A DNA stretch of 64,000 bases from a virus. The translations under genes and the position numbers were made by a program. Shown piece by piece: positions 26,548 through 62,852 of this stretch (its first letter is position 1; every line of letters starts with the position of its first letter). The stretch is from positions 59,807 through 123,806 of IMG/VR virus record IMGVR_UViG_3300019487_000022. One strand, given 5' to 3'. The notes beneath the pieces are model-generated. The model was not told the origin of the DNA. It made no database searches and saw nothing but the letters and a program-made list of their open reading frames with translations.

Positions 26548-26577
26548 ATATTTTCTATTGTTGCGGATAGTAATGTA

Positions 26578-26597
26578 TATAAGTGATTCTCTGGAGA
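26578..26597 (-). promoter_or_regulatory. TCTCCAG-type promoter, macro gene
   Basis: TCTCCAG at 26591-26597 (minus) followed by AT-rich TATACATTACT ending near 26575, 30-50 nt upstream of the macro start. Member of the recurrent element described in the findings. Confidence 0.45.
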
Positions 26598-26604
26598 AGA
26601 CTGG

Positions 26605-27450
26605 TTATATCTCAAATACATCGATATAATCAGATAATTCCGCTTCAAAGTTCTTAGGATGTTTTTTTATTTCTCGTTTTATTTTCTTCCTAATTTTTTT
26701 ATATTTTTGACTTACTCGGGATTCGGATAATCCTATTTTATCAGCTATTTTATCCATTGTTAAATGTTTATAATAATAAAAATAAACTATCTTTTTCTCT
26801 TCATCATCCAAGTTACCCTTACAGCATAATTTCATGAAGAAGTCTTTTTGTTTTATATTTCTATCTACTTCTTCTGAATCATGGTCTATTAAATTATCAT
26901 TCAAATCCCAGGCATGCATATCTCCGTCTTCATCATGAGAAGATTCGATACTTTCATAGTTGCTGACAATATATTTTCTGTTATTACGATGAAACTCAAT
27001 TTCATCCATTCCTATCATATTAACAAAATCCGCATCCGAAATGCGATGCCCAACTTCGTTTTGGACTAAATTTTTTCTTTCTTGAAATTCATCAGAAGCT
27101 AATCTTATGCTGCGTGGAATATTATCTAATCTTCTAATCCCATCAATCATAGATCCTCTTATTCTTCTGTTTGCATACTGTTCAAATGGTACTCCTTTTT
27201 CCATATCATAGTTTTCAATCGCATCATATAAACCATCTAATCCTAGAGATGCTAATTCATCTGCTTGCATTTTCCAGTTTAAACATTCTGCAACTTTTAC
27301 AGCGATTTTTTGAACAAATGGGAAATAATATTCAATGAGAATATTTTTAACATCTGTTTTTTTGTGAGTAATAAATTTTTTCCAAATTATTTGTAACTCT
27401 TCTTTAGACAACTTGTTTTGATTTATCATACTATATTCACCACTAATCAT
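26605..27450 (-). CDS. Sigma factor of the FliA (sigma-28) family
   Basis: 281 residues (or 274 from the second ATG, which has GGTG ahead of it). Region 2: ADELASLGLDGLYDAIENYD then PFEQYANRRIRGSMIDGIRR, very FliA/WhiG-like. Region 3: LASDEFQERKNLVQNEVG. Region 4 helix-turn-helix: TMDKIADKIGLSESRVSQKY. It would redirect host RNA polymerase to phage promoters. The acidic insert SSHDEDGDMHAWDLND between regions 3 and 4 is also typical of the family. The window's recurrent promoter element does not look like a sigma-28 site, so its target may be elsewhere, for example the late genes. Confidence 0.9.
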   Translation of the reverse strand: MISGEYSMINQNKLSKEELQIIWKKFITHKKTDVKNILIEYYFPFVQKIAVKVAECLNWKMQADELASLGLDGLYDAIENYDMEKGVPFEQYANRRIRGSMIDGIRRLDNIPRSIRLASDEFQERKNLVQNEVGHRISDADFVNMIGMDEIEFHRNNRKYIVSNYESIESSHDEDGDMHAWDLNDNLIDHDSEEVDRNIKQKDFFMKLCCKGNLDDEEKKIVYFYYYKHLTMDKIADKIGLSESRVSQKYKKIRKKIKREIKKHPKNFEAELSDYIDVFEI

Positions 27451-27521
27451 ATTAGCACATTAAAGCGCTATAAAATCCACATTCCAAGTATATTTTAAGA
27501 AAAAAATTGACGACCAGTCTA

Positions 27522-27555
27522 TCTCCAGACAGTACTAAACTTTAGATACTATCTT
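27522..27555 (+). promoter_or_regulatory. TCTCCAG-type promoter of the pncB-pth2-nadE operon
   Basis: TCTCCAG at 27522-27528, then 12-13 nt, then TTTAGATACTAT. It lies in the 127-bp divergent spacer between the sigma gene (minus) and pncB (plus), about 30 nt upstream of the pncB ribosome site (GAAAGG). Confidence 0.5.
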
Positions 27556-27577
27556 AAACAGAAAGGTATTAATTATT

Positions 27578-28783
27578 ATGTCTTTAAGATATAAACCCAT
27601 TATCAATTCTATATTGGATACCGACCTTTATAAGTTGACAATGGGTATGGCTGTGGGTAAGGAATATCCTCGTGAGATTGTTAATTATCATTTTATCAAT
27701 CGTGGCAAAACCGTATTTCCTGAAGGCTTTGGTTCCGAACTGATTAATCAAATTCAACATATGGCATCGCTTAGTCTTACAGACAGCGAAGCTTCTTTTC
27801 TTACCGAAAAATGCGGAAGTTTCCTTGATCCTTATTATATTAAAACGTTAAAAGGGTTTCGTTTTGATCCTTCTCAAGTTGATGTTATTCAAAAAGATGG
27901 AGATCTTCGTATCGAAATAATCGGTCCCTGGATTGAAACAATTTATTGGGAAGTGCCTCTTATGGCGCTTATTAGTGAATTGTATTTTTTGATGGAACGC
28001 TACCTTATCAGAACAGAAAATAAGATTGCAACAGACAGGATAGAAATTCTTGATAGGATAGTTAATAAAGGTAAAAAGCTGTCTAATGCGGGCGCTAAAT
28101 TCGCCGATTTCGGTACAAGAAGGAGACATTCATATAATACGCATGATATAGTAGTTTCTGGTTTATGCCAAAAATACTCTGGCAATTCATGCACAGGAAC
28201 GTCAAACGTACACTTTGCACAAAAATACAACACGACCCCTATCGGTACTCAGGCTCATGAATGGTTCATGTACCATGCAGCTAAATATGGCTATCGCATG
28301 GCGAATCAAATGGCTCTTGGAAGGTGGGTTGATGTATTTGGTGGTCAATTGGGTATTGCATTAACAGATACTTTTACTACCAAAGATTTTTTTCATCATT
28401 TTGATCTATTATATGCACAACAGTTTAAGGGAGTAAGGCAGGATTCGGGGGATCCGTTAGTATTTATGGAGAAAATGATCGCTCACTATAATTCACTGGG
28501 AATTGACCCATCAACAAAGACCATTGTGTTTAGTGATTCTTTGAATGTGGAAAAATGTTTAAATATTCTTGAGAAAGCTAATAATCGTATTATGGTTAGT
28601 TTTGGAATTGGAACTAATTTTACTAATGATGTAGGTTATAAACCCCTGAATATGGTTATTAAATTAATGAATGTTAAATTTCAAAATCGTTGGATTCCTA
28701 CTGTTAAATTCTCGGATGATGAAGGTAAAGTGCTTGGACCTGAAACTGAAATAGCATATGCTAAGTATGCATTAGGATTATAA
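27578..28783 (+). CDS. pncB: Nicotinate phosphoribosyltransferase
   Basis: 401 residues, full length. Converts nicotinate and PRPP (with ATP) to nicotinate mononucleotide. Diagnostic blocks: LDTDLYKLTMGMAV, ADFGTRRRHSYNTHD, CTGTSNVHFAQKYNTTPIGT then QAHEWFM (phosphorylated His), RQDSGDPLVF, FSDSLNVEKCL and GIGTNFTNDVGY. These match PncB rather than nicotinamide phosphoribosyltransferase. First gene of a plus-strand operon with a Pth2 gene (2 nt later) and nadE. A nicotinamidase gene at 42303-43112 supplies the preceding step. Confidence 0.93.
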   Translation: MSLRYKPIINSILDTDLYKLTMGMAVGKEYPREIVNYHFINRGKTVFPEGFGSELINQIQHMASLSLTDSEASFLTEKCGSFLDPYYIKTLKGFRFDPSQVDVIQKDGDLRIEIIGPWIETIYWEVPLMALISELYFLMERYLIRTENKIATDRIEILDRIVNKGKKLSNAGAKFADFGTRRRHSYNTHDIVVSGLCQKYSGNSCTGTSNVHFAQKYNTTPIGTQAHEWFMYHAAKYGYRMANQMALGRWVDVFGGQLGIALTDTFTTKDFFHHFDLLYAQQFKGVRQDSGDPLVFMEKMIAHYNSLGIDPSTKTIVFSDSLNVEKCLNILEKANNRIMVSFGIGTNFTNDVGYKPLNMVIKLMNVKFQNRWIPTVKFSDDEGKVLGPETEIAYAKYALGL

Positions 28784-28785
28784 AA

Positions 28786-32124: not shown

Positions 32125-32171
32125 AGGATTCTCCAGGTAACTATATATCCTGGTTATTCCTTTTAATTAAT

Positions 32172-32819: not shown

Positions 32820-32850
32820 TCTCCAGAAGGTTTAACCACTAAATATATCG
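32820..32850 (+). promoter_or_regulatory. TCTCCAG-type promoter of the lysozyme gene
   Basis: TCTCCAG at 32820-32826, 13 nt spacer, then TAAATATATCGG, ending about 20 nt before the lysozyme ATG at 32865. Confidence 0.5.
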
Positions 32851-32864: not shown

Positions 32865-33710
32865 ATGAACTGGTTTAGAAGGTCATTTAGCACATCCTAT
32901 AATCCGAAATTAGCTGCTAATTGGAAGGATTATAGAAAAGGATTTTACGGTCCTGCTTTTTTAGGACTGTTAAATGTCTTTTTAAATATGGGGTATAGCC
33001 CAGCTGAAGCTCAGCAACTCGCAGAAAAACAATATACAGCACAAAATAGTTCAAATGTTACAACACAACCTTCAATAGCTCAACCGACTTCACAACCCAT
33101 TATTAGTCCTATTGTAACAGAATATTCAACTACTCAGCCAACTACACAACCTGTAAATCCTACAACTCAGCAAAGTCAAGGATTTAACTACGATGATTTT
33201 TACGATCATTTATCTCAAGATAATATCGAAGGTTATAGGACAAAGGTTTACGATGATGGAGTTGGAGTAAAAACTATTGGCGTAGGTCATGCAATGGGGA
33301 AAAATCCCAATGATAATTGGGCTACAAGAAGTCGTGAAGTATTTAAAAAGTTATTTCCTGAAGATCCTGATTTATGGGAAAAAGTTTGGAATGGACAAGA
33401 ATTAACCCCAGAACAAATTGGAAAGCTTACTTTTGAAGATATTGAACAGCATCTTACTACTGCAAAACGAGTAATGCCAAATTTTGATACTTACCCTTAT
33501 TATCTACAAAAGGCTCTCCTTGATGGAATTTATCGTGGAGATATAGGTCCAAAAACCAAAAATCTAATTAACCAAGGTAAATGGCAAGAAGCCGCTGACG
33601 AATATATTAACCGTGAAGATTATCGTAATGCAGAGGAAAATAATATGAGAGGCATAAAAACTCGAATGAATAGTAACAGAGATGCTATGCTTCAATATTA
33701 TAAAAACTAA
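32865..33710 (+). CDS. GH24-type lysozyme (endolysin) with N-terminal MNWF segment
   Basis: 281 residues. Residues 107-281 are a T4-type muramidase: the catalytic signature E-x8-D-x5-T is met exactly by E122, D131 and T137 in the stretch from IEGYRTKVYDD to KTIGVGH. Residues 1-60 begin MNWFRRSFSTSYNP and include a hydrophobic helix (GPAFLGLLNVFLNMGYSPAE) that may insert in or contact the membrane. Residues 60-105 are a Thr/Gln/Pro linker. It would cleave peptidoglycan at lysis or entry. It lacks a clear cleavable signal peptide. Plus-strand transcription has its own promoter. Confidence 0.88.
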   Translation: MNWFRRSFSTSYNPKLAANWKDYRKGFYGPAFLGLLNVFLNMGYSPAEAQQLAEKQYTAQNSSNVTTQPSIAQPTSQPIISPIVTEYSTTQPTTQPVNPTTQQSQGFNYDDFYDHLSQDNIEGYRTKVYDDGVGVKTIGVGHAMGKNPNDNWATRSREVFKKLFPEDPDLWEKVWNGQELTPEQIGKLTFEDIEQHLTTAKRVMPNFDTYPYYLQKALLDGIYRGDIGPKTKNLINQGKWQEAADEYINREDYRNAEENNMRGIKTRMNSNRDAMLQYYKN

Positions 33711-35115: not shown

Positions 35116-35188
35116 GCGTCACGGTGGGACTTGAACCCACAACCTGAAGATTTGAAATCCTCCGCTCTGCCAATTGAGCTACGTGAGC
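35116..35188 (-). tRNA. Trp-like suppressor tRNA, anticodon UCA (reads UGA)
   Basis: Cloverleaf: D-arm GCTC AATTGGCA GAGC, anticodon arm GAGGA-TTTCAAA-TCTTC with anticodon TCA at 34-36 and U33 present, 5-nt variable loop, T-arm GTGGG TTCAAGT CCCAC. D-arm and variable region closely resemble tRNA-Trp, whose normal anticodon CCA would become UCA by one change. The acceptor stem pairs over 7 bp only if one C on the 3' strand is bulged (GC-TCACG with CGTGA-c-GC), so function is likely but not certain. Confidence 0.75.
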
Positions 35189-36072: not shown

Positions 36073-37062
36073 TTAAAGGATTTTATTGCTTACTCTCTCT
36101 AAGTATTCATTCGTCTTTTCAATATCTTTTACTTTAAAAACCAATATAACTTTATTCCAAAGTACATCTTGTTCTTTCACAAAAACAGAATTGGTAATGT
36201 ACCTTTTTATTTCTTTTCGATTTAATTCTTTCATGCTTTTACAATAAATGCCTTTTCTTCCATAGTACTCGCTATTTTCTGCCTTACCTTTTAAGAAAAC
36301 ATCGTAAAGATCAGGAAATACCCAACGTCCGCATTGGTCACGATTAAACATTCTTAATTCGTGAGTCAACCATCCATGAGTAGCTTTGGTTGCCTCTAAT
36401 TCCTTTTGTAAACGATCTCTGTGTTCTGCTCTCCAAGGTATATAAACAGGCTCAGGGATTTCAGCAAATGTTAATAAATGCCATTTTCCTTTGTAAGAGT
36501 GGCATTGATGCCATTTATCCACTTCTATACGATAATATGGTGTTTTATCAACACGATATCGATCATTTTTAGGAACTAATTCTAATAATCCAGTTCCTGG
36601 ATGAACATATACTATGGCATAAGACTCGGAGATTGGAAGATAAGGAATGCCTTTAGCAATATCTCCACGTATAGAAAAACGATAGATATAATCCGAAGCA
36701 AAATATACTTCGCCTTCTTCGTTTAAGAAGGTTTTTTCTTCCACATAATCTTTTGCATGTTGCCAAATGTGATATTGTACAGCAGAGCTGGGATTTATGT
36801 ATTCACACATTTCAGAGAATACTTGGTCCCAAGATCTTCCAACTTGGCTACGAAGGTAACGCATTAAGGGATTGAGATTTTCATTCAATTCCTTGCATTC
36901 CCAGCTTTTTGTCCAATTACGGATACCTTCACGATCTGTCAAAAGATCGTAATTGTCGTTATGAATACAACGGTTTAACTCGTGTTTTAATTCATTGCGA
37001 CGTTCACGGTATTTAGTTGCGTGTCCTTTGTATCGTGGACGTTCCACGATAACCTTTGCCAT
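36073..37062 (-). CDS. Conserved protein of a Planctomycetes-like family (MAKVIVERPR type)
   Basis: 329 residues from the ATG that gives MAKVIVERPRYKGHATKYRE; a start four codons upstream is possible. Features LNENLNPLMRYLRSQVGRSW then DQVFSEMCEYINPSSAVQYH, and PYYRIEVDKWHQCHSYKGKW. I recall the beginning and the GR-(P/S)-WD-x-V-(Y/F)-SE block from uncharacterised proteins of Planctomycetes and Myxobacteria, but I have no family name and no function. It suggests gene exchange with that host group. Confidence 0.7.
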   Translation of the reverse strand: MAKVIVERPRYKGHATKYRERRNELKHELNRCIHNDNYDLLTDREGIRNWTKSWECKELNENLNPLMRYLRSQVGRSWDQVFSEMCEYINPSSAVQYHIWQHAKDYVEEKTFLNEEGEVYFASDYIYRFSIRGDIAKGIPYLPISESYAIVYVHPGTGLLELVPKNDRYRVDKTPYYRIEVDKWHQCHSYKGKWHLLTFAEIPEPVYIPWRAEHRDRLQKELEATKATHGWLTHELRMFNRDQCGRWVFPDLYDVFLKGKAENSEYYGRKGIYCKSMKELNRKEIKRYITNSVFVKEQDVLWNKVILVFKVKDIEKTNEYLERVSNKIL

Positions 37063-37183
37063 ATCTGATCTCATGTAAGTTCCTTTCGTGTCTACACCTA
37101 CACATGTGCGTTGTAGACCATAGCTTACTAGTTGCAGCTATGCCGCCATTCGCGGACGAAAAAGAATATGAAAAACCAGTCAT
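37013..37183 (-). CDS. Possible 56-residue leader ORF
   Basis: ATG 37181-37183 preceded by AGGAG at 7 nt spacing. The 56-residue product begins MTGFSYSFSSANGGIAATSK and its end overlaps the next gene out of frame by 50 nt. Strong ribosome site but unremarkable composition, so it may be a translated leader. Low certainty. Confidence 0.35.
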   Translation of the reverse strand: MTGFSYSFSSANGGIAATSKLWSTTHMCRCRHERNLHEIRYGKGYRGTSTIQRTRN

Positions 37184-37226: not shown

Positions 37227-37254
37227 TTAATATCGAGTTATTTTTCTCTGGAGA
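37227..37254 (-). promoter_or_regulatory. TCTCCAG-type promoter
   Basis: TCTCCAG (minus, 37248-37254), 13 nt, then GATATTAATTAC. Lies just after the stop of the gene at 37262 and upstream of the leader ORF and MAKVIVERPR-type gene. Confidence 0.45.
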
Positions 37255-43112: not shown

Positions 43113-43201
43113 TGGATAATCCTTTCTATACGTGTAATACGATGGGGTTTGACACAACCGGAGATAATTACAAAATACTTTAAAAGGTTAAAAAATTAAG
43201 A

Positions 43202-43558: not shown

Positions 43559-43595
43559 ATCTAGTATCCTTCATTGTCTATACTAGATATGAATA
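43552..43595 (-). promoter_or_regulatory. 16-bp hairpin embedding a start codon
   Basis: Arms 43552-43567 and 43580-43595 are perfectly complementary over 16 bp. In the minus transcript the AUG (43556-43558) is inside the 3' arm and the AAGG ribosome site is in the 12-nt loop. A TCTCCAG promoter element lies immediately upstream (43601-43607). Confidence 0.65.
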
Positions 43596-43607
43596 TTTAC
43601 CTGGAGA

Positions 43608-48804: not shown

Positions 48805-48828
48805 GTAAAAAATATGGCTATTTTCGAT

Positions 48829-48854
48829 AATAAAGAGAATTTAACTTCTGGAGA
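48829..48854 (-). promoter_or_regulatory. TCTCCAG-type promoter for tRNA cluster
   Basis: TCTCCAG (minus, 48848-48854), 13 nt, TTTATTATCG, ending about 25 nt before the first tRNA-Leu. Confidence 0.45.
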
Positions 48855-50668: not shown

Positions 50669-50690
50669 TGAATCACCTCTTTTTATTAAA

Positions 50691-50930
50691 TTAAGCAATG
50701 TAAGCCATATCATTTTTAATCTTTATATCATTAGCATACCCTTCAATTACCGCTCTTGGTTGTCTCTTTTTCGATTTACTACAACCATTTAATTTATGAA
50801 AAACAATGTGCTTAACAAAATGACATTTTCCTTTAAAATGCACTGACCAAATTACCTCTCCCAATTGCAATGTTTTTGGTTTATTAAAGTGAAAGAAAAA
50901 CTTAAATTTGCCAGGTGTTTTAAGAGGCAT
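50691..50930 (-). CDS. Unknown small basic protein
   Basis: 79 residues, basic and aromatic (GKFKFFFHFNKPKTLQLGEV, KCHFVKHIVFHKLNGCSKSK). No family recognised. Confidence 0.55.
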   Translation of the reverse strand: MPLKTPGKFKFFFHFNKPKTLQLGEVIWSVHFKGKCHFVKHIVFHKLNGCSKSKKRQPRAVIEGYANDIKIKNDMAYIA

Positions 50931-50933
50931 ATC

Positions 50934-51263: not shown

Positions 51264-51613
51264 TCTAACGAAGCTAAAGCAAGCATTTCAGTTTTTGTCA
51301 TTTTTCTATAAATACGACTATTTAATCTAAAATTTTGATTATCACTTAAAATAGCTAATCTTGGAATATCAGTTTCTAAATCTAACCTATCCTTATCATC
51401 TAATTCAACATATGCACATTTATTCTTGTTTAATCTAATAATTTTATCAAATGCTGGAAACTCTGGAGTGCTTGGGAATCGTATCACTAAGTAAGAAAAA
51501 CTATTACCCACATATCCTTCTAAAACAAACACCTCTACAGATGGAGAAAAGAACGGATTATGAGAGTATAAAAGCTTTAATTTTATTGAAGAAGTAGGTA
51601 ATATACACAACAT
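51248..51613 (-). CDS. Unknown protein
   Basis: 121 residues, beta-rich (SFSYLVIRFPSTPEFPAFDK, LNKNKCAYVELDDKDRLDLE). C-terminus KMTKTEMLALASLDWVVD. No family recognised. Confidence 0.6.
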   Translation of the reverse strand: MLCILPTSSIKLKLLYSHNPFFSPSVEVFVLEGYVGNSFSYLVIRFPSTPEFPAFDKIIRLNKNKCAYVELDDKDRLDLETDIPRLAILSDNQNFRLNSRIYRKMTKTEMLALASLDWVVD

Positions 51614-51642
51614 CTATCTTATAATCGACAGGCATTGTTAAT

Positions 51643-51843
51643 TTATATTCTCACCCATTTTGCAGGTTTTCTAGACGATTCTCTACGTCGATTTATATCT
51701 TTTAGTTTAGGGCATATGTTATATATAATCTCGCCCAATATAGATATATCTAACATTTGTCCTTTACTTTCTTTAAAAGCTTTATCTATCGCTGCATCAA
51801 AACGTTGTGAAAATTTCTTTCTTTTTATATTATTCTTTGCCAT
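51643..51843 (-). CDS. Small basic protein
   Basis: 66 residues with KRKKFSQRFDAAIDKAFKES, GEIIYNICPKLKDINRRRES and a basic C-terminus. Lies immediately downstream of the RNA ligase gene (10-nt gap), so possibly its partner. No family recognised. Confidence 0.55.
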   Translation of the reverse strand: MAKNNIKRKKFSQRFDAAIDKAFKESKGQMLDISILGEIIYNICPKLKDINRRRESSRKPAKWVRI

Positions 51844-51852
51844 AATAGTTTA

Positions 51853-52875
51853 TCAACTAAAATCATTATCATCTGGCGCATGTTTCGGATTAATTAACTT
51901 AAGAGCCAAACGAAACTTTGTTGTTGAATAACGAGGAATTAGTGGAGTTACAACAACACCTTCTTTTATATGTAACGAATTGCCACTGATATTTTCTTTT
52001 CCTTCTCTTAAAGGACGAATTTTATTGATATCAAATGGACCTTCATATAAAACAGGCACCCAAAGCTTCCGTAAATCTTCAGGAATTTCTGAAAATGGTA
52101 AAGTCCTACCTTCAACATCAATCCTGAAAATAAATATAGTTTTCTTTTTTAAACCGTAGTTGTATCCTTTATGAAAAGGAACGACCTCACCAAATGCTTG
52201 AGTATTTACACTAGGAAAATGTTTTTCCAAAAGATCAAAGAGTCCAGAATCATTAGCTACAATACGATACGCAACATCTGCTTCATCAGCAAAAAATTGA
52301 TCGTTATCAAGTAATCCTTTTGATGTAACTAACCTTTTACCATCTGCTAGTTTGACATACACACCTTGAGTACCATGAATTTTCTCTGTAACTTGTACAT
52401 GTTCACCCTCTACAAATTCATTAGGATAAATATTGTAAGTTTCAACTTCGTGCTTATGAATATCTGTACCAATTGTTTCAAGAGAAAATACCTCTCCAAC
52501 CAATTCATCTGGAATTGGAGCTATATATCGCGTTATCCCTAACCTAGCAGAAATATCTTCACCTAATGGAACATCCACTAATGCAGGAATATCATCAAGA
52601 ATAATTCCCTGAGTCAGCTCTTTTTGCATAACCAGGGCTTTAACACGATTCTTTTCAGGACCAACTAAGTATTTACGGCGATCCCCTTCATCAGCAATTG
52701 CATCTGGTAAAACGGATTTTTCAGGAACAAAAATTACAATGCTCTCGTTCTTGAAAATTCCTTTACCAACGACCACCTGATATTGCCCCACTTTACCTAG
52801 TTCCAATCTCAAAACCTCTGGATTAGGGTGAGGAAATAACTGTATCTTTTCTCTTGTAACTTTCCACTGTGCCAT
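51853..52875 (-). CDS. RNA ligase, DRB0094/Rnl5-like
   Basis: 340 residues. N-terminal OB-like region (1-130) followed by a nucleotidyltransferase domain, the Rnl5 order. Motif I is VTEKIHGTQG with the adenylated Lys at K165; motif III is likely QAFGEVVPF; motif IV KEGVVVTP; motif V LALKLINPKH. Seals RNA nicks via ligase-AMP. With the 2H phosphoesterase at 13148 and the tRNA array it could repair host or phage tRNAs cut by defence nucleases. All core motifs appear intact. Confidence 0.88.
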   Translation of the reverse strand: MAQWKVTREKIQLFPHPNPEVLRLELGKVGQYQVVVGKGIFKNESIVIFVPEKSVLPDAIADEGDRRKYLVGPEKNRVKALVMQKELTQGIILDDIPALVDVPLGEDISARLGITRYIAPIPDELVGEVFSLETIGTDIHKHEVETYNIYPNEFVEGEHVQVTEKIHGTQGVYVKLADGKRLVTSKGLLDNDQFFADEADVAYRIVANDSGLFDLLEKHFPSVNTQAFGEVVPFHKGYNYGLKKKTIFIFRIDVEGRTLPFSEIPEDLRKLWVPVLYEGPFDINKIRPLREGKENISGNSLHIKEGVVVTPLIPRYSTTKFRLALKLINPKHAPDDNDFS

Positions 52876-52902
52876 AAATACTCCAAAATATCGTCTTTGC
52901 TT

Positions 52903-53415
52903 CTATTTTAACATTGTTTGCATTACAGGATTGCAATACGCACGTCTCCAAAAATCTAATGTTTCTTCTCCAACCTGAGAGACATTCGCTCTTGCAACTA
53001 TTTCAGCTTCGCTATAAAAAACAAAAGATTCTTTTCTCAATCCAAATAATCTTAAACTTCTAATGATTCGCGTAATACGTAATAAATTATGATTGCGAAA
53101 AGCACACCAAGATTGTTTATCTACATTCCAATGATTACCTATTCCATAAAATAAACGAAATCTCTCAAGACAACTTAAAATATTAGTTGTGGCTTTATCT
53201 GAACTTTGAAGAATTTTTATATCTTCTTCTGTTAAAACAGGCCCATTAAAATTATGCCGTGAAGTCTCATGCAAAGGGAATAGCCATTGAATCCAAGTAT
53301 GACTTTTTTCAAGATCCCAATCAGAACTGTTAATCATCTGTTTTAAAGTTATGCCTTCATCATTTGGTAAATCATTAATATAGAAGTCTAAAATTTTTGA
53401 TGTATATTTAGTCAT
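52903..53415 (-). CDS. OGFr-like domain protein
   Basis: 170 residues. WDLEKSHTWIQWLFPLHETS then RHNFNGPVLTEEDIKILQSS matches the opioid-growth-factor-receptor-type domain (W-x-LE-x-x-H-x-(Y/W)-IQWLFP), which occurs in some bacterial and viral proteins. The C-terminal half is helical (RFRLFYGIGNHWNVDKQSWC). Molecular function of this domain is unknown. Lies directly upstream of the RNA ligase gene. Confidence 0.75.
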   Translation of the reverse strand: MTKYTSKILDFYINDLPNDEGITLKQMINSSDWDLEKSHTWIQWLFPLHETSRHNFNGPVLTEEDIKILQSSDKATTNILSCLERFRLFYGIGNHWNVDKQSWCAFRNHNLLRITRIIRSLRLFGLRKESFVFYSEAEIVARANVSQVGEETLDFWRRAYCNPVMQTMLK

Positions 53416-53756
53416 ACAATACCTGCCATTTTCTTGCGATGTCTTTTACACCATGATGAATTTAAAACCATGTTTGATGCATCTCTAGCACAAGAAGGTT
53501 GTTCAAAAGCGACTTTAAAACTAGTTAAAAATAACCTATGGCGTTCTTGTTCATCTTCCCATGACTTTTTATGTTCTGGACAAAGAGCTAAAGAACCCCA
53601 ACCCGGTCTTGCATTTGCAATCCATTCTGCACCAAAAATACCACAAACATTGCAACAGAGATTCCAGCCGTTTAATTCCTTTTCTGCTGCTTCTGCCATT
53701 TGTAAAGCAATTTTATGGGCTTCTGGATTTATTTCTTCTGGTTTCTTAAAAGGCAT
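53412..53756 (-). CDS. Unknown Cys/His protein
   Basis: 114 residues. WNLCCNVCGIFGAEWIANAR with LALCPEHKKSWEDEQERHRL could bind one metal. Helical C-terminal part. Stop overlaps the next start as ATGA. A TCTCCTG variant promoter lies about 60 nt upstream. Confidence 0.6.
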   Translation of the reverse strand: MPFKKPEEINPEAHKIALQMAEAAEKELNGWNLCCNVCGIFGAEWIANARPGWGSLALCPEHKKSWEDEQERHRLFLTSFKVAFEQPSCARDASNMVLNSSWCKRHRKKMAGIV

Positions 53757-53828
53757 TTTTCACTTTCTTAAACGTAAATAAGCCTTAATGAGATATGAAA
53801 GGGGAATTTTCTTCAGGAGATGAGAAGT

Positions 53829-53912
53829 GTCGTTGAGAGGATTCGAACCTCCAAGGTCACAATGACCACATGGGTCTGAACCATGCGCTTTTACCAATTT
53901 AGCCACAACGAC
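53829..53912 (-). tRNA. tRNA-Leu, anticodon CAG
   Basis: GT-rich acceptor GTCGTTG/CAACGAC, anticodon arm CATGG-TTCAGAC-CCATG, long variable arm GGTC..GACC, T-loop TTCGAAT. Reads CUG. Confidence 0.9.
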
Positions 53913-53915
53913 ATT

Positions 53916-54086
53916 TTATATTTTTCCACACAAGTGATAAATTAATGTTGTAAATGACATGCCTATTACAAATAAATATATGCAAAGAAGAATCAAAAAT
54001 GCTTGCCTTTGTTTCCAACGAACTTTTGCAATAGCATAATCCGTTGTTTCTTTCCAATATTTTTTCTGCCAATCATCTGTATTCAT
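53916..54086 (-). CDS. 56-residue single-span membrane protein
   Basis: ATG at 54084-54086 shares its A with the stop of the upstream gene (TAATG). Starts MNTDDWQKKYWKETTDYAIA, a variant of the KKYWKE motif seen in two virion-module proteins, then a basic segment and a membrane helix (FLILLCIYLFVIGMSFTTLI). No named family. Confidence 0.6.
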   Translation of the reverse strand: MNTDDWQKKYWKETTDYAIAKVRWKQRQAFLILLCIYLFVIGMSFTTLIYHLCGKI

Positions 54087-54346
54087 TATTTTTTCTTTCT
54101 TTTCTTTTTTAAATCTTCTTCTCTTTTCTTCATTGCTGCTATCTTTATTTTAGCTATATAATGTCCGTTCCCAGCCAGATCTTTTGCTTCTTTTGTCATT
54201 GCTGCTACATAATGTTCATGAGCAGTTTTTAATGCTAATTGACCTTCTGGTGTTTCAAACATTCTACGAGATATTTCTATTCTTTCTTGTATGTCTTTTT
54301 CTAGTTCTTCCTTAGTCATCTCTTTATATTTAGGTTTCTTTTTCAT
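54086..54346 (-). CDS. Small basic helical protein
   Basis: 86 residues from ATG 54344-54346; a longer frame would read through the tRNA gene. Very charged (MKKKPKYKEMTKEELEKDIQ ... MKKREEDLKKKRKKK). No family recognised. Confidence 0.55.
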   Translation of the reverse strand: MKKKPKYKEMTKEELEKDIQERIEISRRMFETPEGQLALKTAHEHYVAAMTKEAKDLAGNGHYIAKIKIAAMKKREEDLKKKRKKK

Positions 54347-54350
54347 AAGT

Positions 54351-54431
54351 GTCGATGACAGGAGTCGAACCTGCACGATGTTACTCAACAGTTTTTGAAA
54401 CTGCCGCGGCTGCCAATTCCGCCACATCGAC
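54351..54431 (-). tRNA. tRNA-Leu, anticodon CAA
   Basis: GTCGATG/CATCGAC acceptor, anticodon arm GCAGT-TTCAAAA-ACTGT, variable arm, T-loop TTCGACT. Reads UUG. Confidence 0.88.
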
Positions 54432-54439
54432 ATGTATTA

Positions 54440-54661
54440 CTACCAATCATTTATCAAATGTTCATTGATAAATGATATCAGCCATTTTCTACCACGTTCT
54501 TCCGCACCTACAGAAATTCTTAAAACTTTATGACCTACATATCCAGCAATTCCTGTTAGCTCAAATTCTTTTTGAGTAGTTTCATCATAGTAACGTTTAC
54601 CCATTTTATTTAAAATTTGAAAATCATTTGGATGAATATATTCTACATCTTCTATAGCCAT
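54440..54661 (-). CDS. Unknown small protein
   Basis: 73 residues from ATG 54659-54661 (reading further upstream enters the tRNA). It has FELTGIAGYVGHKVLRISVG, ending in a helix. No family recognised. Confidence 0.55.
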   Translation of the reverse strand: MAIEDVEYIHPNDFQILNKMGKRYYDETTQKEFELTGIAGYVGHKVLRISVGAEERGRKWLISFINEHLINDW

Positions 54662-54687
54662 AAATATCTTTCTTTTTAAATTACAAT

Positions 54688-54777
54688 GCGGAAGGTGGGA
54701 TTCGAACCCACAACCGTTCAAGGACGGATTCCCAATATTTTAAGTATTGGAGGTAAGCCAGTTCCCGTCACTCCCGC
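54688..54777 (-). tRNA. tRNA-Leu, anticodon UAA
   Basis: GCGGGAG/CTTCCGC acceptor (one G-U), anticodon arm CAATA-CTTAAAA-TATTG, long variable arm, T-loop TTCGAAT. Reads UUA. Confidence 0.9.
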
Positions 54778-54860
54778 GATATGAAGTGAAGATCATTAGA
54801 CCCAACCCAGAGCAGCGTCATAGGCGTCATTCTAACATAAATTCACTTCAATAATATAAT

Positions 54861-55115
54861 TTAACTTTGCATATCATCAAACATTTGACATTCAGATACA
54901 TGACATAAATTGTATCGAATTCCATTTATTTCTTTTGTCTCAACGTTAGGCCATTCTCTGCAATCAGGATCTCCACAATCTAGCATGCACCATTCAGGAC
55001 CATCTCTGCCCTTATTAGGTCCAATGATTTGTACTATATGTTTATTTGAATTTTCTATAAAACCACTGGCTCTTGAGAGCCAAACCCAATCTCCACTTTT
55101 ACGTCTTTTGCTCAT
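54861..55115 (-). CDS. Unknown Cys/Trp protein
   Basis: 84 residues from ATG 55113-55115 (GGAG six bases upstream). It has KSGDWVWLSRASGFIENSNK, EWCMLDCGDPDCREWPNVE and NLCHVSECQM, five Cys and possibly metal. The 83-nt gap to the next tRNA holds an 8-bp inverted repeat (GAAGTGAA/TTCACTTC) and no gene. Confidence 0.55.
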   Translation of the reverse strand: MSKRRKSGDWVWLSRASGFIENSNKHIVQIIGPNKGRDGPEWCMLDCGDPDCREWPNVETKEINGIRYNLCHVSECQMFDDMQS

Positions 55116-55133
55116 CTTTAGCTCCAAATAAAT

Positions 55134-55213
55134 GCGGTTGAGAGGATTCGAACCTCCACGGTGTTACCCGCTACCACCTCAAGGTAGTGCGTCTGCCTTT
55201 TCGCCACAACCGC
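55134..55213 (-). tRNA. tRNA-Leu, anticodon GAG
   Basis: GCGGTTG/CAACCGC acceptor, anticodon arm CTACC-TTGAGGT-GGTAG, variable arm CGG..CCG, T-loop TTCGAAT. Reads CUC/CUU. Confidence 0.9.
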
Positions 55214-55229
55214 GATTCTTCTTACAAGC

Positions 55230-55317
55230 GGAAGGTGTCAGAGTTGAACTGACAATACGTCTTTCAACGTATAATTGTTTTCAAGACAATCGGACTTGCC
55301 AATGTACCAAACCTTCC
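55230..55317 (-). tRNA. tRNA-Ser, anticodon UGA (copy 1)
   Basis: GGAAGGT/ACCTTCC acceptor, anticodon arm ATTGT-CTTGAAA-ACAAT, long variable arm ATACGT..ACGTAT, T-loop TTCAACT. Reads UCA and probably other UCN. Confidence 0.9.
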
Positions 55318-55328
55318 ATATAAACAGC

Positions 55329-55417
55329 GGTGGGAGTCAGAGTCGAACTGACACACCATCTTTTCGACGATGAACACCTTTCCAAGATGTTTGACTTACC
55401 AATGTGCAAATCCCACC
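55329..55417 (-). tRNA. tRNA-Ser, anticodon GGA
   Basis: GGTGGGA/TCCCACC acceptor, anticodon arm ACATC-TTGGAAA-GGTGT (one G-U), long variable arm, T-loop TTCGACT. Reads UCC/UCU. A TCTCCTG promoter variant lies upstream at 55446-55452. Confidence 0.9.
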
Positions 55418-55455
55418 ATATAAATAATATATCGACAACTTCATTCAGGAGACAT

Positions 55456-55540
55456 GGATGATGGAGGAGTTGAACCACTTGCCTGTCCGCCCGATTTAAT
55501 TAGGCAACCGGGTTACAGCCGGTCATCGGGAACATCATCC
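55456..55540 (-). tRNA. tRNA-Tyr, anticodon GUA (copy 1)
   Basis: GGATGAT/ATCATCC acceptor, anticodon arm ACCGG-CTGTAAC-CCGGT, long variable arm TGCC..GGCA. The T-stem is imperfect and the D-arm short. Reads UAC/UAU. Confidence 0.82.
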
Positions 55541-55544
55541 GTAA

Positions 55545-55617
55545 GGCTATGTAGGGAGTCGAACCCTAAATGTCGCGAGATTTGCAGTCAAGCCGCTTGC
55601 CACTTGCATACATAACC
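55545..55617 (-). tRNA. tRNA-Cys, anticodon GCA (imperfect anticodon stem)
   Basis: GGTTATG/CATAGCC acceptor (one T-G), anticodon loop CTGCAAA, short variable loop, T-loop TTCGACT. The anticodon stem CTTGA/TCTCG has two mismatches, so it may be weak or decayed. Confidence 0.65.
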
Positions 55618-55653
55618 ATAGGCATCTATTCAGTTTTCAAAGAACTCACAAGA

Positions 55654-55735
55654 GACTGGGGTGAGATTCGAACTCACGTTGTCTTTCGACAGTCGCTTTG
55701 CAGGCGACCCCATTTGTCCACTCTGGCACCCAGTC
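55654..55735 (-). tRNA. Class II tRNA with Cys anticodon GCA
   Basis: GACTGGG/CCCAGTC acceptor, Ser-like D-arm (CCAGAGTGG..TGG), anticodon arm GTCGC-CTGCAAA-GCGAC and a long variable arm GTC-GAAA-GAC, T-loop TTCGAAT. Normal tRNA-Cys has a short variable loop, so this is a Ser/Leu-type body carrying a Cys anticodon. Charging identity is uncertain. Confidence 0.8.
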
Positions 55736-55744
55736 AACTATTAA

Positions 55745-55761
55745 CGGAGAGGTAATGGAAT
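55745..55761 (+). repeat. Left direct repeat of the nuclease insertion (tRNA 3' end copy)
   Basis: CGGAGAGGTAATGGAAT, 16 of 17 bases identical to 56409-56425, which is the 3' acceptor and T-arm start of the tRNA-Ser(UGA) copy 2 gene. The two copies flank the plus-strand nuclease gene. Confidence 0.65.
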
Positions 55762-55807
55762 AGCTCTTGTTTTAAAGAAAACCTTTCCGTTTATTCGAAT
55801 ATCTATT

Positions 55808-56419
55808 ATGAAAACATCGTGTTCAGACTGCAATAATACCTTTGATAAAAAATCTTATGAAATTAAACGCACTAAATATCATTTTTGTTCTCTTAAATGT
55901 TGGTCAAATTTTCAAAATAAGAAAAAACCAACTAAAATTAAAGTAACATGTGCAACTTGTGGTTTTAACTTTTTTAAAATTCCAGCAGAGATCTCTAAAA
56001 CTGGTAATTCTTTTTGTAACCGTTCTTGCGCTGTTGTGTTTAATAACCGTAAAAAACGTAAAAGCAGACGTTCTAAAGCAGAAAAAATGCTTTTTGATTT
56101 ATTAAATAAATCTTTTCCTAACCTTCCTATTCTTGCAAACGACAAATCATTATTAGATGGTTTAGAAATTGACATAGCTTTTCCTAGTCTTAAACTTGGC
56201 ATAGAATGGAATGGTATAGTCCATTTTAAACCAATTTTTGGTACACAAAAATTTCTAAAAATTCAACACAACGATATCAGAAAACAAAAAATAGCGTTTG
56301 AAAAAGGCATTCACTTAATTGTTGTGCCAGATCTTGTTTCTACTAAATCCTATGTTGAGGACGCTGCAATGAGCATCAAACAGATCATAACATCTCTGCT
56401 TGATAAACCGGAGAGGTAA
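55808..56419 (+). CDS. Zinc-finger/Vsr-like (DUF559-type) homing-type endonuclease
   Basis: 203 residues, on the opposite strand to the surrounding tRNA genes. N-terminal half has two zinc fingers (CSDCNNTFDKK ... HFCSLKCWSNF and CATCGFNFFKI ... SFCNRSCAVVF), then a basic stretch. The C-terminal half is a PD-(D/E)XK/Vsr-like nuclease: SKAEKMLFDLLNKSFP, LEIDIAFPSLKLGIEWNGIV (D and E of the core), HNDIRKQKIAFEKGIHLIVV. Its last codons (KPER then TAA) are made from the duplicated tRNA acceptor sequence. This architecture matches free-standing EDxHD/Vsr-type homing endonucleases. Confidence 0.78.
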   Translation: MKTSCSDCNNTFDKKSYEIKRTKYHFCSLKCWSNFQNKKKPTKIKVTCATCGFNFFKIPAEISKTGNSFCNRSCAVVFNNRKKRKSRRSKAEKMLFDLLNKSFPNLPILANDKSLLDGLEIDIAFPSLKLGIEWNGIVHFKPIFGTQKFLKIQHNDIRKQKIAFEKGIHLIVVPDLVSTKSYVEDAAMSIKQIITSLLDKPER

Positions 56420-56425
56420 TAGAAT
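56409..56425 (+). repeat. Right direct repeat of the nuclease insertion
   Basis: CGGAGAGGTAATAGAAT, overlapping the nuclease stop codon and the 3' part of the tRNA-Ser(UGA) gene. One mismatch with the left copy at 55745-55761. Confidence 0.65.
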
Positions 56426-56493
56426 CGAACTATCAACGTTTTACCGTCAGCCGAGTGTTCAAAACTCGTTGGGAACCGTTTCCCGCTACCCTC
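56410..56493 (-). tRNA. tRNA-Ser, anticodon UGA (copy 2, insertion target)
   Basis: Acceptor GGAGGGT with CCTCTCC (one G-U, one mismatch next to the D-arm), anticodon arm CGAGT-TTTGAAC-ACTCG, long variable arm, T-loop TTCGATT. Its 3' end is shared with the end of the inserted nuclease gene. Confidence 0.85.
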
Positions 56494-56526
56494 CAAAATA
56501 TTAACTTTTTACAACTAACTTCAAGC

Positions 56527-56613
56527 GGAGAGCGAGAGAATCGAACTCTCACCGGGGTTAACCGGACCAATTTAGCAAACTGGCGAGGCGAAGCCAATAT
56601 CCAACTGCTCTCC
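56527..56613 (-). tRNA. tRNA-Ser, anticodon GCU
   Basis: GGAGAGC/GCTCTCC acceptor, anticodon arm CCAGT-TTGCTAA-ATTGG (one G-U), variable arm CCGG..CCGG, T-loop TTCGATT. Reads AGC/AGU. Confidence 0.9.
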
Positions 56614-56617
56614 GTTT

Positions 56618-56887
56618 TTAAATATCAGTACGCAACTTCATCTTATCATAATCATGAGACATTCTGATAATCAATGATTCTCGCAAAGCAGGTAAAGTTG
56701 CATTTACAACCTTCCAACCTGTTTCTATTCTTCCTGTTTCAGGATCCTCTAATTTATCCAATATGGCACCTGGAATAGCAATCGATTGACGTATCCAAGA
56801 CACCATTCTAGCTATACCATTGTCCATAGGTTTTTCTAATTCGCATTGAACATACATTGTTTCGTTATGTTTATTATGCTTTGCCAT
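56618..56887 (-). CDS. Unknown small protein
   Basis: 89 residues with GIARMVSWIRQSIAIPGAIL, GWKVVNATLPALRESLIIRM. Overlaps the upstream gene by 14 nt. No family recognised. Confidence 0.6.
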   Translation of the reverse strand: MAKHNKHNETMYVQCELEKPMDNGIARMVSWIRQSIAIPGAILDKLEDPETGRIETGWKVVNATLPALRESLIIRMSHDYDKMKLRTDI

Positions 56888-57143
56888 ATAATTCTTTCTG
56901 TTCAGCTACTTGCCAAGTTACTTTTGTTTCGCTGCCTTTCTTATATGTATCCCAATCAATCTTGCCGGTTGCGATGATTACTCCATCAACAATCTTTACG
57001 ATTCTCCATTCAAAACCAGGTTCAATCCAATTTAGTTGTACAAGACCTTTTGTTTGTTCTACTTCTGATTCTAACGCTTTCCCTTCATTCTTAAACTCTT
57101 CGCCACTATGGTTTCGTACCTGAATCTGAAATAAATTACTCAT
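56874..57143 (-). CDS. Unknown small protein
   Basis: 89 residues from ATG 57141-57143; reading further upstream enters the tRNA-Tyr. Beta-rich (LVQLNWIEPGFEWRIVKIVD, GSETKVTWQVAEQKELYGKA). No family recognised. Confidence 0.6.
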   Translation of the reverse strand: MSNLFQIQVRNHSGEEFKNEGKALESEVEQTKGLVQLNWIEPGFEWRIVKIVDGVIIATGKIDWDTYKKGSETKVTWQVAEQKELYGKA

Positions 57144-57147
57144 AAGT

Positions 57148-57230
57148 GCGCCGGACAGGATTCGAACCTGTGAACCCATTAGGGATCTGTTTTACAGACA
57201 GACTGCTTTAAGCCACTTGCATACCGACGC
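57148..57230 (-). tRNA. tRNA-Tyr, anticodon GUA (copy 2)
   Basis: GCGTCGG/CCGGCGC acceptor (one G-U), anticodon arm TCTGT-CTGTAAA-ACAGA, variable arm CCC..GGG, T-loop TTCGAAT. Confidence 0.9.
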
Positions 57231-57657: not shown

Positions 57658-57891
57658 TTACATATTTTCTAATGGAGTACATCTACCCTCTTTGTACGCC
57701 TCAACTATTGCCATCATTTCAGAACAAAACTTGTCTGCAAATGATGAATCATGTTGTATTTTAGACCAAAATTCTTCTCGTGATTCATCCAAAAAATTGC
57801 TTGTTGTGAAATTTATTGCAACAAGACCTTGTTTTCGTTCTTCTTTTAACCAATCACAAAATTTCTGCTGAATCTCGGTCATTGCATCCAT
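57658..57891 (-). CDS. Unknown small protein
   Basis: 77 residues with EIQQKFCDWLKEERKQGLVA, FWSKIQHDSSFADKFCSEMM. Preceded by a TCTCCAG-type promoter. No family recognised. Confidence 0.6.
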   Translation of the reverse strand: MDAMTEIQQKFCDWLKEERKQGLVAINFTTSNFLDESREEFWSKIQHDSSFADKFCSEMMAIVEAYKEGRCTPLENM

Positions 57892-57894
57892 TAT

Positions 57895-57919
57895 TCTTAT
57901 GTCATCAGTTCTCTGGAGA
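57895..57919 (-). promoter_or_regulatory. TCTCCAG-type promoter
   Basis: TCTCCAG (minus, 57913-57919), 13 nt, TAAGAATAATGG running into the start of the gene at 57891. A hairpin (ATTTTATC/GATAAAAT, near 57970) that may terminate the protease gene lies further upstream. Confidence 0.45.
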
Positions 57920-59471: not shown

Positions 59472-59954
59472 TTATCCTGCAATCATATCTATAGTAATAT
59501 CTTTGGTGTAGTTAAACTTATCAATTTGATTTTGTATCCTATCAATTTCTCGCTGTATATCTAATTTTGTTTGTTCTACTTCTTGTTTTTTAATACAAGC
59601 ATCAAAGTTACTAGGTTCCGATTCGTATTTATCTTTTACTTTTCCGTGCTTTGTATCTACAGTACCCCAAAACATCATATCATCTTTTAATTCTGCTAGC
59701 TTAAGTATATCTGGACGGATACTTTGGCTTTCGTCCCACAATACGAGTTTCAATTGGATTAGATGAGTTTTTAATTCTTCTCTACGTTGAACAAGTGTAT
59801 TTATGTCTACCCCGTCTCTATTGGCAAATGCTTCATTCTCGAAAATTTCTACAGAGTTATATTTCGCAATCTCTGAAGAAACTTTTGTTAGTTCCTGTAT
59901 AACACGTTTTTTGTAGACCAACGCTTGAGCAATCGAGAGAGTGGTAACAGCCAT
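59472..59954 (-). CDS. Unknown coiled-coil protein
   Basis: 160 residues. SIAQALVYKKRVIQELTKVS and VDINTLVQRREELKTHLIQL, then VEQTKLDIQREIDRIQNQID: long helices typical of coiled coils. A weak resemblance to DIP1984-type proteins (N-terminal ALVxRxxL) is noted but not trusted. Confidence 0.65.
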   Translation of the reverse strand: MAVTTLSIAQALVYKKRVIQELTKVSSEIAKYNSVEIFENEAFANRDGVDINTLVQRREELKTHLIQLKLVLWDESQSIRPDILKLAELKDDMMFWGTVDTKHGKVKDKYESEPSNFDACIKKQEVEQTKLDIQREIDRIQNQIDKFNYTKDITIDMIAG

Positions 59955-59984
59955 GTTTAAAATCCTTTTGTTGTTCTTAAAATA

Positions 59985-60009
59985 TAAATTTGAAAGTAGC
60001 CGCTGGAGA
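59985..60009 (-). promoter_or_regulatory. TCTCCAG-type promoter
   Basis: TCTCCAG (minus, 60003-60009), 13 nt, ATTTATATTTTA, about 40 nt upstream of the coiled-coil gene start at 59954. Confidence 0.45.
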
Positions 60010-60101: not shown

Positions 60102-60605
60102 TTAGAAGCGGAAACCTACGCCCAATCCGTACACAAATGCCCCATCATCGAAGCCGTCTTCAAGAGGTACTTCATATTGAACAATACCGTAAATATATGT
60201 GGTATCGTTAACGAAATACTTAACGCCTGCTTCAGGTCCACCGATCCATTCATCCTGTACGCAGTCACCATATTGATAACCAACGCTTACACCAACAAAT
60301 GGTTGCCAACGTTGTAAATCAAAATGATACTGAGCAAAACCGACAGTAGCACCATTTACTACTGAATCGCTTCCCTCACTATCAGACCAATTTACAGTCT
60401 GACGAAGACCGAATTCCACTTCTTTCGTAGTGAAATAGCCAATACCAACAGTAGCGCCAAGCGAATTGCTATCAAAATCGTTATCGCTTGCACCGCTACC
60501 ATTGAGAGTCAAATCCCAGTTACCCTTTTCTGCCGCTTGCCCGAAAGCAAAAGACGACATCAAGGCGAGACTCAAAACAATAACAGATACGAACTTACGC
60601 AACAT
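60102..60605 (-). CDS. Outer-membrane beta-barrel protein
   Basis: 167 residues. Signal peptide MLRKFVSVIVLSLALMSSFA then FGQAAEKGNW (cleavage near residue 23). The mature part alternates polar and aromatic strands (LGATVGIGYFTTKEVEFGLR, WQPFVGVSVGYQYGDC, TYIYGIVQYEVP) and ends GAFVYGLGVGFRF, the C-terminal aromatic signature read by the outer-membrane insertion machinery. Predicted 8-strand barrel. Codons are more GC-rich than in its neighbours. Phage-encoded barrels of this kind can alter the cell surface, as Lom does in lambda. Confidence 0.85.
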   Translation of the reverse strand: MLRKFVSVIVLSLALMSSFAFGQAAEKGNWDLTLNGSGASDNDFDSNSLGATVGIGYFTTKEVEFGLRQTVNWSDSEGSDSVVNGATVGFAQYHFDLQRWQPFVGVSVGYQYGDCVQDEWIGGPEAGVKYFVNDTTYIYGIVQYEVPLEDGFDDGAFVYGLGVGFRF

Positions 60606-60753
60606 ATCGTAACTCCTTATAAAGATTTTTCTGTTCCACCATAGAACAGTTTGGGCAACATGCCCTTTATTACGAACTATGCATCATAACAGATGCTTCT
60701 ACCACTTTATAGGACTAAAACCTTTTCAGCGGGAGAGATCGTTTATACGAATT

Positions 60754-61951: not shown

Positions 61952-62023
61952 GCCTACGGTGGGAATTGAACCCACGATCTCCATATTACGAGTATGGCGC
62001 TTTGCCAGCTAAGCTACGAAGGC
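61952..62023 (-). tRNA. tRNA-Thr, anticodon CGU
   Basis: GCCTTCG/CGTAGGC acceptor (one mismatch), anticodon arm CCATA-CTCGTAA-TATGG, T-loop TTCAATT. Reads ACG. Confidence 0.88.
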
Positions 62024-62027
62024 GAAT

Positions 62028-62324
62028 TTAATAATGAACGCCTAATGGTCTTTTAGTATTCGTCTCACTAGCCACAATTAAAAACCATGACTGTCTGAAT
62101 TTACTCCATCTCACCATCCGCCAGCCATTAGTATAAGAGCCAACAGTAATATCGAGCCAGGGAATCTGCAAAAACGATAAATAACGATCTACCCAATTTT
62201 GCATCTTCCTCATTTGTGCTTCAAATGCTTCTTTTATCAAAGGAGTAAAAGAAGCAAGAATTAAAGCATCGTTTAATTCATCCACTGTTTTATCGACCCT
62301 ATTAAGAAGATAATCGTTATTCAT
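62028..62324 (-). CDS. Unknown small protein
   Basis: 98 residues with NALILASFTPLIKEAFEAQM, VDRYLSFLQIPWLDITVGSY then GWRMVRWSKFRQSWF. Overlaps the next gene upstream by 8 nt. No family recognised. Confidence 0.6.
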   Translation of the reverse strand: MNNDYLLNRVDKTVDELNDALILASFTPLIKEAFEAQMRKMQNWVDRYLSFLQIPWLDITVGSYTNGWRMVRWSKFRQSWFLIVASETNTKRPLGVHY

Positions 62325-62535
62325 AACATTTTATACCAGATAATATAATACGCAATCTTTTATGCCATTTATAAATTAAACCTCTATAATTAACACTTTG
62401 TGCTAATTCAAGTCTATCGCAGATTGTTTGTTTGGTTTTTTCTAATCTTCGTATCTCTTCTAAATTGCGCTTTCTTACTATTGGTCTTGCACCCCATAAT
62501 CCAGGACGTATGAGGATCCATTTATAACGACGCAT
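62317..62535 (-). CDS. Unknown small basic protein
   Basis: 72 residues, Arg-rich (RRYKWILIRPGLWGARPIVR then KRNLEEIRRLEKTKQTICDR). Sits 3 nt from the tRNA-Thr(GGU) gene. No family recognised. Confidence 0.55.
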   Translation of the reverse strand: MRRYKWILIRPGLWGARPIVRKRNLEEIRRLEKTKQTICDRLELAQSVNYRGLIYKWHKRLRIILSGIKCYE

Positions 62536-62537
62536 AA

Positions 62538-62610
62538 GCTAGTGGCGAGAATCGAACTCGCGACCTCTTCCGTACCAAGGAAGCGTTCTACCAGACTGAA
62601 CTACACCAGC
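62538..62610 (-). tRNA. tRNA-Thr, anticodon GGU
   Basis: GCTGGTG/CACTAGC acceptor (one G-U), anticodon arm CTTCC-TTGGTAC-GGAAG, T-loop TTCGATT. Reads ACC/ACU. Confidence 0.9.
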
Positions 62611-62620
62611 ATAATTAATA

Positions 62621-62736
62621 GAAGAAGGAATTTCACCCTCGACAATTAAGATACCTTAGAATTTCCTAATTGCTGGCGGCTACATCCTCTAAGGTTAGTC
62701 TCGCCGCCCTCTTAAGCCAGAACTACTCCACTTCTT
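62621..62736 (-). ncRNA. Candidate structured RNA upstream of tRNA-Thr
   Basis: 116 nt with no ORF. Terminal AAGAAG/CTTCTT pairing encloses a GGCGGC/GCCGCC helix (62675-62708) and a CAATTA/TAATTG hairpin (62643-62672). A TCTCCAG element at 62744-62750 (minus) points at it. Resembles a decayed or unusual tRNA or a small phage RNA; no anticodon arm can be assigned. Confidence 0.4.
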
Positions 62737-62852
62737 ATTATTTCTGGAGAAACCTTCTTTTTGCACTTATATTAGCCGATTAAACAAAAGGAATACCTAT
62801 TAAATAATCACAATTAAATTATAAGAAAATATTTCACACTCAATAAACTTTT

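Follow-up and report, generated by a model that had tools for sequence, protein, structure and literature searches.

A probable phage-specific promoter class with a CTCC-type box in place of the -35 element in a relative of Bacillus phage G

The middle promoters of phage SPO1 have AGGAGA as their -35 element, together with a T-rich -10. The sigma factor for the SPO1 middle genes is gp28 (PMC9429907). In the middle promoters of T4, which depend on MotA and AsiA, the MotA box (a/t)(a/t)(a/t)TGCTTtA lies 12 +/- 1 bp from an excellent TAtaaT, the -10 of sigma-70 (PMC2988021). FliA (sigma-28) promoters have the consensus TAAAGTTT-N11-GCCGATAA (PMC2859248). Reviews of jumbo phages report sigma factors and suggest phage-specific promoters. 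Here we describe a recurrent element, TCTCC(A/T)G and its variants, in a 64,000-nt window of an uncultured virus record, IMGVR_UViG_3300019487_000022. The window covers positions 59807-123806 of the 123,806-bp record, and the remainder of the record was examined too. No such motif was found in the open-access literature searched. The class is an undescribed signal of a kind already known, the phage promoter with a replaced -35.

Sequence evidence strongly supports the view that this box marks a genuine, conserved and phage-specific promoter class. Its promoters would have two parts: in the -35 region the box (T)CTCC(A; in fewer sites G, T or C)G and, after a spacer of 18 (19) bp, a minimal -10 in which only TA is strongly kept. 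As in the T4 middle promoters, a phage-specific box would replace the -35 and host RNA polymerase would be used; unlike in T4, the box is CTCCAG, the spacer is 18 bp and the -10 is poor. The SPO1 middle promoters are similar in that a large phage of Bacillota has its own -35/-10 pair, but the gp28-type boxes differ from CTCCAG and TA. The phage encodes a sigma factor of the FliA/WhiG type, but neither TAAAGTTT nor GCCGATAA, and no TAAA/CGATA pair, is present in the box class. Host sigma-70/sigma-A promoters have TTGACA and a TATAAT with T at -7. Here the -35 hexamer is CTCCAG, and T is found at -7 in 6 of the 26 accepted sites defined below.

A simple hexamer model was used for gene calling and gave 147 coding sequences covering 89% of the record; tRNAs were called with ARAGORN. 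A previous sequence-only reading had reported eleven TCTCC(A/T)G positions and a TCTCCCG at 60736, all of which are exact, and had stated that the motif would be discredited if it were as common inside genes or in shuffled sequence. It is not. The window has 28 copies of TCTCCWG, where dinucleotide-preserving shuffles have a mean of 10 (standard deviation 3.2, maximum 18), and the density of TCTCCAG per base in the whole record is 10.6-fold higher in intergenic than in coding DNA. Versions of TCTCCAG with one mismatch show no intergenic enrichment in the whole record (0.86-fold). No other 7-mer is as enriched as TCTCCAG in 78 upstream regions of the record (11 regions against 0.9 expected, P = 5e-9). 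TCTCC.G is at the top of a set of 60 arrangements of its letters, with 26 intergenic sites, 19 of them with TA at 18 nt; the means of the set are 3.3 intergenic sites and 0.55 TA-paired sites. Sites beyond those reported before are found at 32130 (+), 43164 (-; TCTCCGG) and, in tandem to another box, 48873 (-), and about a dozen more lie in the portion of the record outside the window. The claimed absence of the motif from the virion module at 1-24 kb holds for intergenic sites, but two antisense intragenic copies are present (20646 and 21620). In this block none of the 10 usable upstream regions has a site, against 9 of 39 elsewhere, a difference that is not significant (Fisher P = 0.17).

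The second element had been described as an AT-rich box after 13 nt, and this needs correction. The fixed partner is TA, starting 18 or 19 nt past the G of the box. TA is located exactly 18 nt past the G in 19 of 26 intergenic TCTCC.G sites (background frequency 0.10, binomial 6e-14), but in only 2 of 37 coding copies (Fisher 1.6e-8). Because TA at 18 had first been spotted by eye in the same sites, controls were run. In an unbiased dyad scan of the record (all 5-mers, gaps of 10-23, dinucleotides), TCTCC-N20-TA is the top pair. The record contains 21 copies of TCTCCNG-N18-TA (2.2 in shuffles) and none of the reversed pattern, and the window contains 12 copies (1.2 in shuffles). With N19 spacing, CCTCCAG and sites a short way within the end of a gene also admitted, 26 sites were accepted in the record, and TA is at 18 in 20 of them. 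For about 15 accepted sites, a start called on the same strand follows after 28-57 nt, and no accepted site has a distance below 28 nt.

If TA is taken as positions -12 and -11, CTCCAG falls in the position of the -35 hexamer, the spacer is 18 bp, and the predicted start of transcription is around 30 nt past the box. The minimum distance of 28 nt to called starts fits this prediction. RNA polymerase would thus leave very short leaders, and three sites imply leaderless or nearly leaderless mRNAs. The sites thus combine two boxes at a fixed spacing with orientation, intergenic location and a start distance compatible with the gene starts. Together with conservation at orthologous genes, described below, these features strongly support the proposal of the sequence-only reading, a single class of phage promoter whose unusual -35 sets it apart from sigma-70 and FliA sites.

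The major capsid protein of the phage is 53% identical to its counterpart in Bacillus phage G, and capsids 66-79% identical to it are found in 80 IMG/VR loci, some on contigs up to 548 kb. By sequence, the phage is a member of a clade of huge phages near Bacillus phage G and a distant relative of phage G itself. The relatives compared here were obtained through the capsid protein search. Single-protein scans with the terminase and the sigma factor yielded no relatives and the scan with NAPRTase yielded one, while the RNR scan led to two other phages, with one further protein matching only and without the box class.

In the relatives, genes for the macro-domain protein and NAPRTase are often the neighbors of the sigma gene, as they are here. 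In G069, whose sigma is 45% identical, TCTCCGG precedes the NAPRTase orthologue with TA at 18 and the macro orthologue with TA at 17. In G073 (sigma 48% identical), CTCCGG with TA at 18 is present at both orthologous places beside the sigma gene. G074 has TCTCCGG before the macro gene with TA at 20, and its whole record contains seven forward and no reverse CTCCGG, with 1.9 expected. By locus, the promoter place of the macro gene has CTCCGG in L246 and L247 and TCTCCGG-N20 in L248. The commonest TA spacing in G069, G073 and G074 together is 18 (6 of 14 sites). With this record counted in both sets, T(C/T)TCC.G is found in 6 of 14 non-redundant sigma-NAPRTase intergenic regions (0.7 in shuffles) and in 4 of 26 sigma-macro regions (0.6 in shuffles). 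The class is therefore no quirk of one genome, and the same signal at the same genes in the nearest relatives shows that it is real. It is conserved in a subclade of the huge phages related to phage G. This record has 26 sites, and about 15 of these are clearly placed as promoters.

The orthologous NAPRTase promoter of the more distant G003 and G015 has TTTCCAGACAA. This element, itself undescribed, resembles the box in its TCCAG core in the -35 region, but the conserved site is longer, TA is 3 bp further off and the -10 is a sigma-A-like TAGAAT. In G003, TTCCAGAC is found in 29 upstream regions against 1.3 expected, at a fixed distance from a TAGAAT-like -10. The G003 record (IMGVR_UViG_3300033145_003233, L162-L189; 548 kb) has about 30 upstream copies of TTAAT-TTTCCAGACAA at a fixed distance from TAGAAT, and besides these a separate TTGAAAGTGAAAG...TATAAT class. 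In L258-L260, the sigma-NAPRTase intergenic region (3685-4001) contains four copies of TTTCCCGA on both strands, a possible variant of the box. In G002 (IMGVR_UViG_3300032257_000479, L207-L215), TCACCGA is found in 10 upstream regions against 0.4 expected, with none for the reverse; in most cases it lies about 40 nt before starts, and a TA-rich, -10-like stretch follows about 19 nt on. TCACCGA is perhaps the box class of the G002 phage's own.

We put the probability of the whole explanation, a phage-specific promoter class for which a separate activator-like factor is slightly favored over a phage sigma factor as the reader, at about 75%. Several observations weigh against it. Most relatives do not have the box above background: counts are near background in 71 records of capsid relatives, with hits mostly within open reading frames in the seven loci inspected, and no box class is present in the 75 kb of Bacillus phage G examined. 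The spacing is 19 in 6 of the 26 accepted sites, and for several sites the nearest called gene is more than 100 nt away. The -10 is weaker, as the scarcity of T at -7 shows, than is usual for sigma-A promoters driven by an activator. The family matches listed for the scanned proteins revealed no activator gene. MotA and AsiA homologues are likewise absent from the matches listed (the top 25 families per batch of proteins scanned). A WYL-domain hit was considered as a regulator candidate and rejected, as it is a weak match inside a DUF192 protein.

The box is probably read by a phage-specified factor, which would replace the normal -35 recognition. The sequence-only reading had proposed dependence on the phage sigma factor encoded at 26605..27450 (-). 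Pfam regions 2 and 4 of this protein score above the cut-off, and its best family matches are WhiG (1.4e-44) and FliA_WhiG (5e-43), both below the NCBIfam family cut-offs. The gene is conserved in 21 of 50 records tested from the clade; an orthologue in G004 (locus L105) has one in-frame TGA. Under this explanation, region 4 would have shifted from TAAA to CTCCRG, and region 2 would need little beyond TA. The sigma gene has no box before it, but is flanked by two box promoters here, in G069 and in G073. The fixed -35/-10-like spacing and the dominant -35 suit a dedicated sigma factor, and the poor -10 argues against host sigma-A. Among 18 aligned phage sigmas, that of this phage alone has K-Y after SESRxSQ; at these two positions the rest read (I/L/M)-(H, or Y in one more locus). 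However, nearly all 18 have a FliA-like recognition helix, SESR(I/V)SQ, and the box-bearing G069 and G073 have the same ordinary helix as box-less phages, so that the proposed dependence is not supported. The residues aligned with D81, R84 and R91 of FliA, its -10-reading residues, are invariant across the 18, which also weighs against the sigma factor as the reader. CGATA, the FliA-type -10, is enriched upstream of genes in G006, G008, G003 and G011, but the box promoters do not contain it. In this record CGATA is not enriched upstream (9 against 6.6), TAAA-N-CGAT pairs show no excess, and sigma-70-like pairs in upstream regions are as common as in shuffles (25 against 24.8). A box-reading sigma factor is possible, but we consider it doubtful. 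A separate phage factor that works together with host RNA polymerase is a little likelier because the sigma factor does not co-vary with the box, and is given tentatively, at a little under an even chance.

The reader could also be an alternative sigma factor or an activator of the host, the phage having copied the signal of a host regulon. Phages often exploit host signals. The box, however, differs between close relatives (CTCCAG, CTCCGG and TTTCCAGACAA), and we know of no bacterial sigma factor with a CTCC -35; this origin is unlikely. Still less probable is that the motif is not a promoter at all, but an RNA element (for example, one masking the ribosome site), an operator only, or an effect of chance or codon usage. 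TCTCC is complementary to the Shine-Dalgarno core GGAGA, which is likewise enriched upstream, and some sites have inverted repeats, such as CTGGAG-GCAAT-CTCCAG before a Cas3-like gene. The repeat at the Cas3-like gene is accounted for by a pair of divergent promoters, both of which have a TA at 18. Models of this kind leave no room for the fixed TA at 18, one site precedes a tRNA, and chance fails by a wide margin in the controls.

The sequence-only reading had suggested that the class may serve early or middle genes. Genes downstream of the box sites include those for NAD salvage, a macro-domain protein, tRNA and a lysozyme-like protein and, outside the window, a Cas3-like operon. The sequence-only reading had placed every site 25-60 nt upstream of a gene, tRNA or non-coding RNA. 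This is right for the sites at 26597, 27522, 32820, 43607, 48854, 53820, 55452 and 60009, but four others are more distant from called genes. TCTCCAG-N18-TACTAT is found twice, at 26571..26597 (-) before the macro-domain gene (26035-26547) and at 27522..27548 (+) before the NAPRTase/NAD synthetase genes (27578 on). Two more copies are on the plus strand: TCTCCAG-N19-TATCGG at 32820..32847 precedes the lysozyme-like gene (32865-33710), and TCTCCAG-N18-TATTCC at 32130..32156 is doubtful because no same-strand gene follows for 728 nt. The remaining sites listed here for the window are on the minus strand. TCTCCGG-N18-TATTAC (43138..43164) precedes 42303-43112, and promoters are predicted at 43581..43607 (TCTCCAG-N18-TATAGA) before 43202-43558, at 53794..53820 (TCTCCTG-N18-TATCTC) before 53412-53756, and at 59983..60009 (TCTCCAG-N18-TATTTT) before 59472-59954. 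In the stretch 43550-43607, the leader past the box holds an inverted repeat, CATATCTAGTAT...ATACTAGATATG, with the likely ribosome site in its loop; the repeat may fold into an RNA hairpin at the start codon. TCTCCAG-N18-TATCGA at 48828..48854 precedes tRNA-Leu (48730-48804), and the tandem box at 48867-48873 has no paired TA. TCTCCTG-N19-TATTTA at 55425..55452 is promoter-like and located 28 nt before a tRNA-Ser called by ARAGORN (55327-55417), a call without Rfam support.

The four distant sites are also promoter-like. TCTCCAG-N18-TAATTA (37228..37254) is 173 nt from the called gene 36073-37074, TCTCCCG-N18-TATAAA (60710..60736) is 169 nt before 60102-60560 as called, and TCTCCAG-N18-TAGTTC (62724..62750) is 133 nt before tRNA-Thr (62537-62610). 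TCTCCAG-N19-TAATGG (57892..57919) is 501 nt from a called gene, but about 21 nt from a small open reading frame (57658-57891).

Other elements were seen in the record and in the relatives. The tRNA set at 46168-57230 is unusual. It is dominated by tRNAs that have long variable arms, namely many for Leu and Ser and one for Tyr, and it has two for Cys; some of the ARAGORN calls have no Rfam support. A tRNA with the anticodon TCA at 35116-35188 is called by both ARAGORN and Rfam. Outside the window, a box promoter precedes the operon of a locus with clustered regularly interspaced short palindromic repeats (L011 5267-12065, record 45267-52065). It encodes a Cas3-like HD/helicase protein (819 aa) and a 1135-aa protein with a TnpB/Cas12-like C-terminus, and its array has 12 repeats of GTTGTAATGCATTACGTTAAAGTAATGTTATGCAAC. 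Cas3 next to a Cas12/TnpB-like protein is an odd pairing. In G008 (IMGVR_UViG_3300005681_000225, L225-L244; 494 kb), more than 30 upstream regions contain CTAAACTTTC, in many cases ~20 nt ahead of the start codon, and CTAAACTT is found in 31 upstream regions against 3 expected. A role of CTAAACTT as a FliA -35 was rejected, as it is often only ~20 nt from start codons and has no consistent -10; the two sequences are considered to be a putative leader or start element. AAAGTGA, enriched in G003, G015 and G047, follows TTG in ordinary TTGAAA/TATAAT promoters in most cases and is no FliA site.

The promoters of uncultured huge phages are almost unknown. The class described here comes from sequence alone, through its exact geometry and orthologous conservation, and predicts the starts of about 15 or more transcription units. 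In the huge phages of the phage G clade, a putative phage factor may re-target host RNA polymerase to a fast-evolving box in the -35 region, an idea that we hold with less than even confidence. The box would be CTCCAG here and CTCCGG, TTTCCAGACAA and perhaps TTTCCCGA and TCACCGA in relatives. The box class is an entry point to the search for the factor by which relatives of phage G would redirect host RNA polymerase, and the differing related boxes in one clade (CTCCAG, CTCCGG and TTTCCAGACAA) would allow the study of co-evolution between factor and box. If re-targeting of this kind takes place, the factor would be a further route by which phages rewrite -35 recognition, besides MotA/AsiA and the SPO1-type sigma factors.

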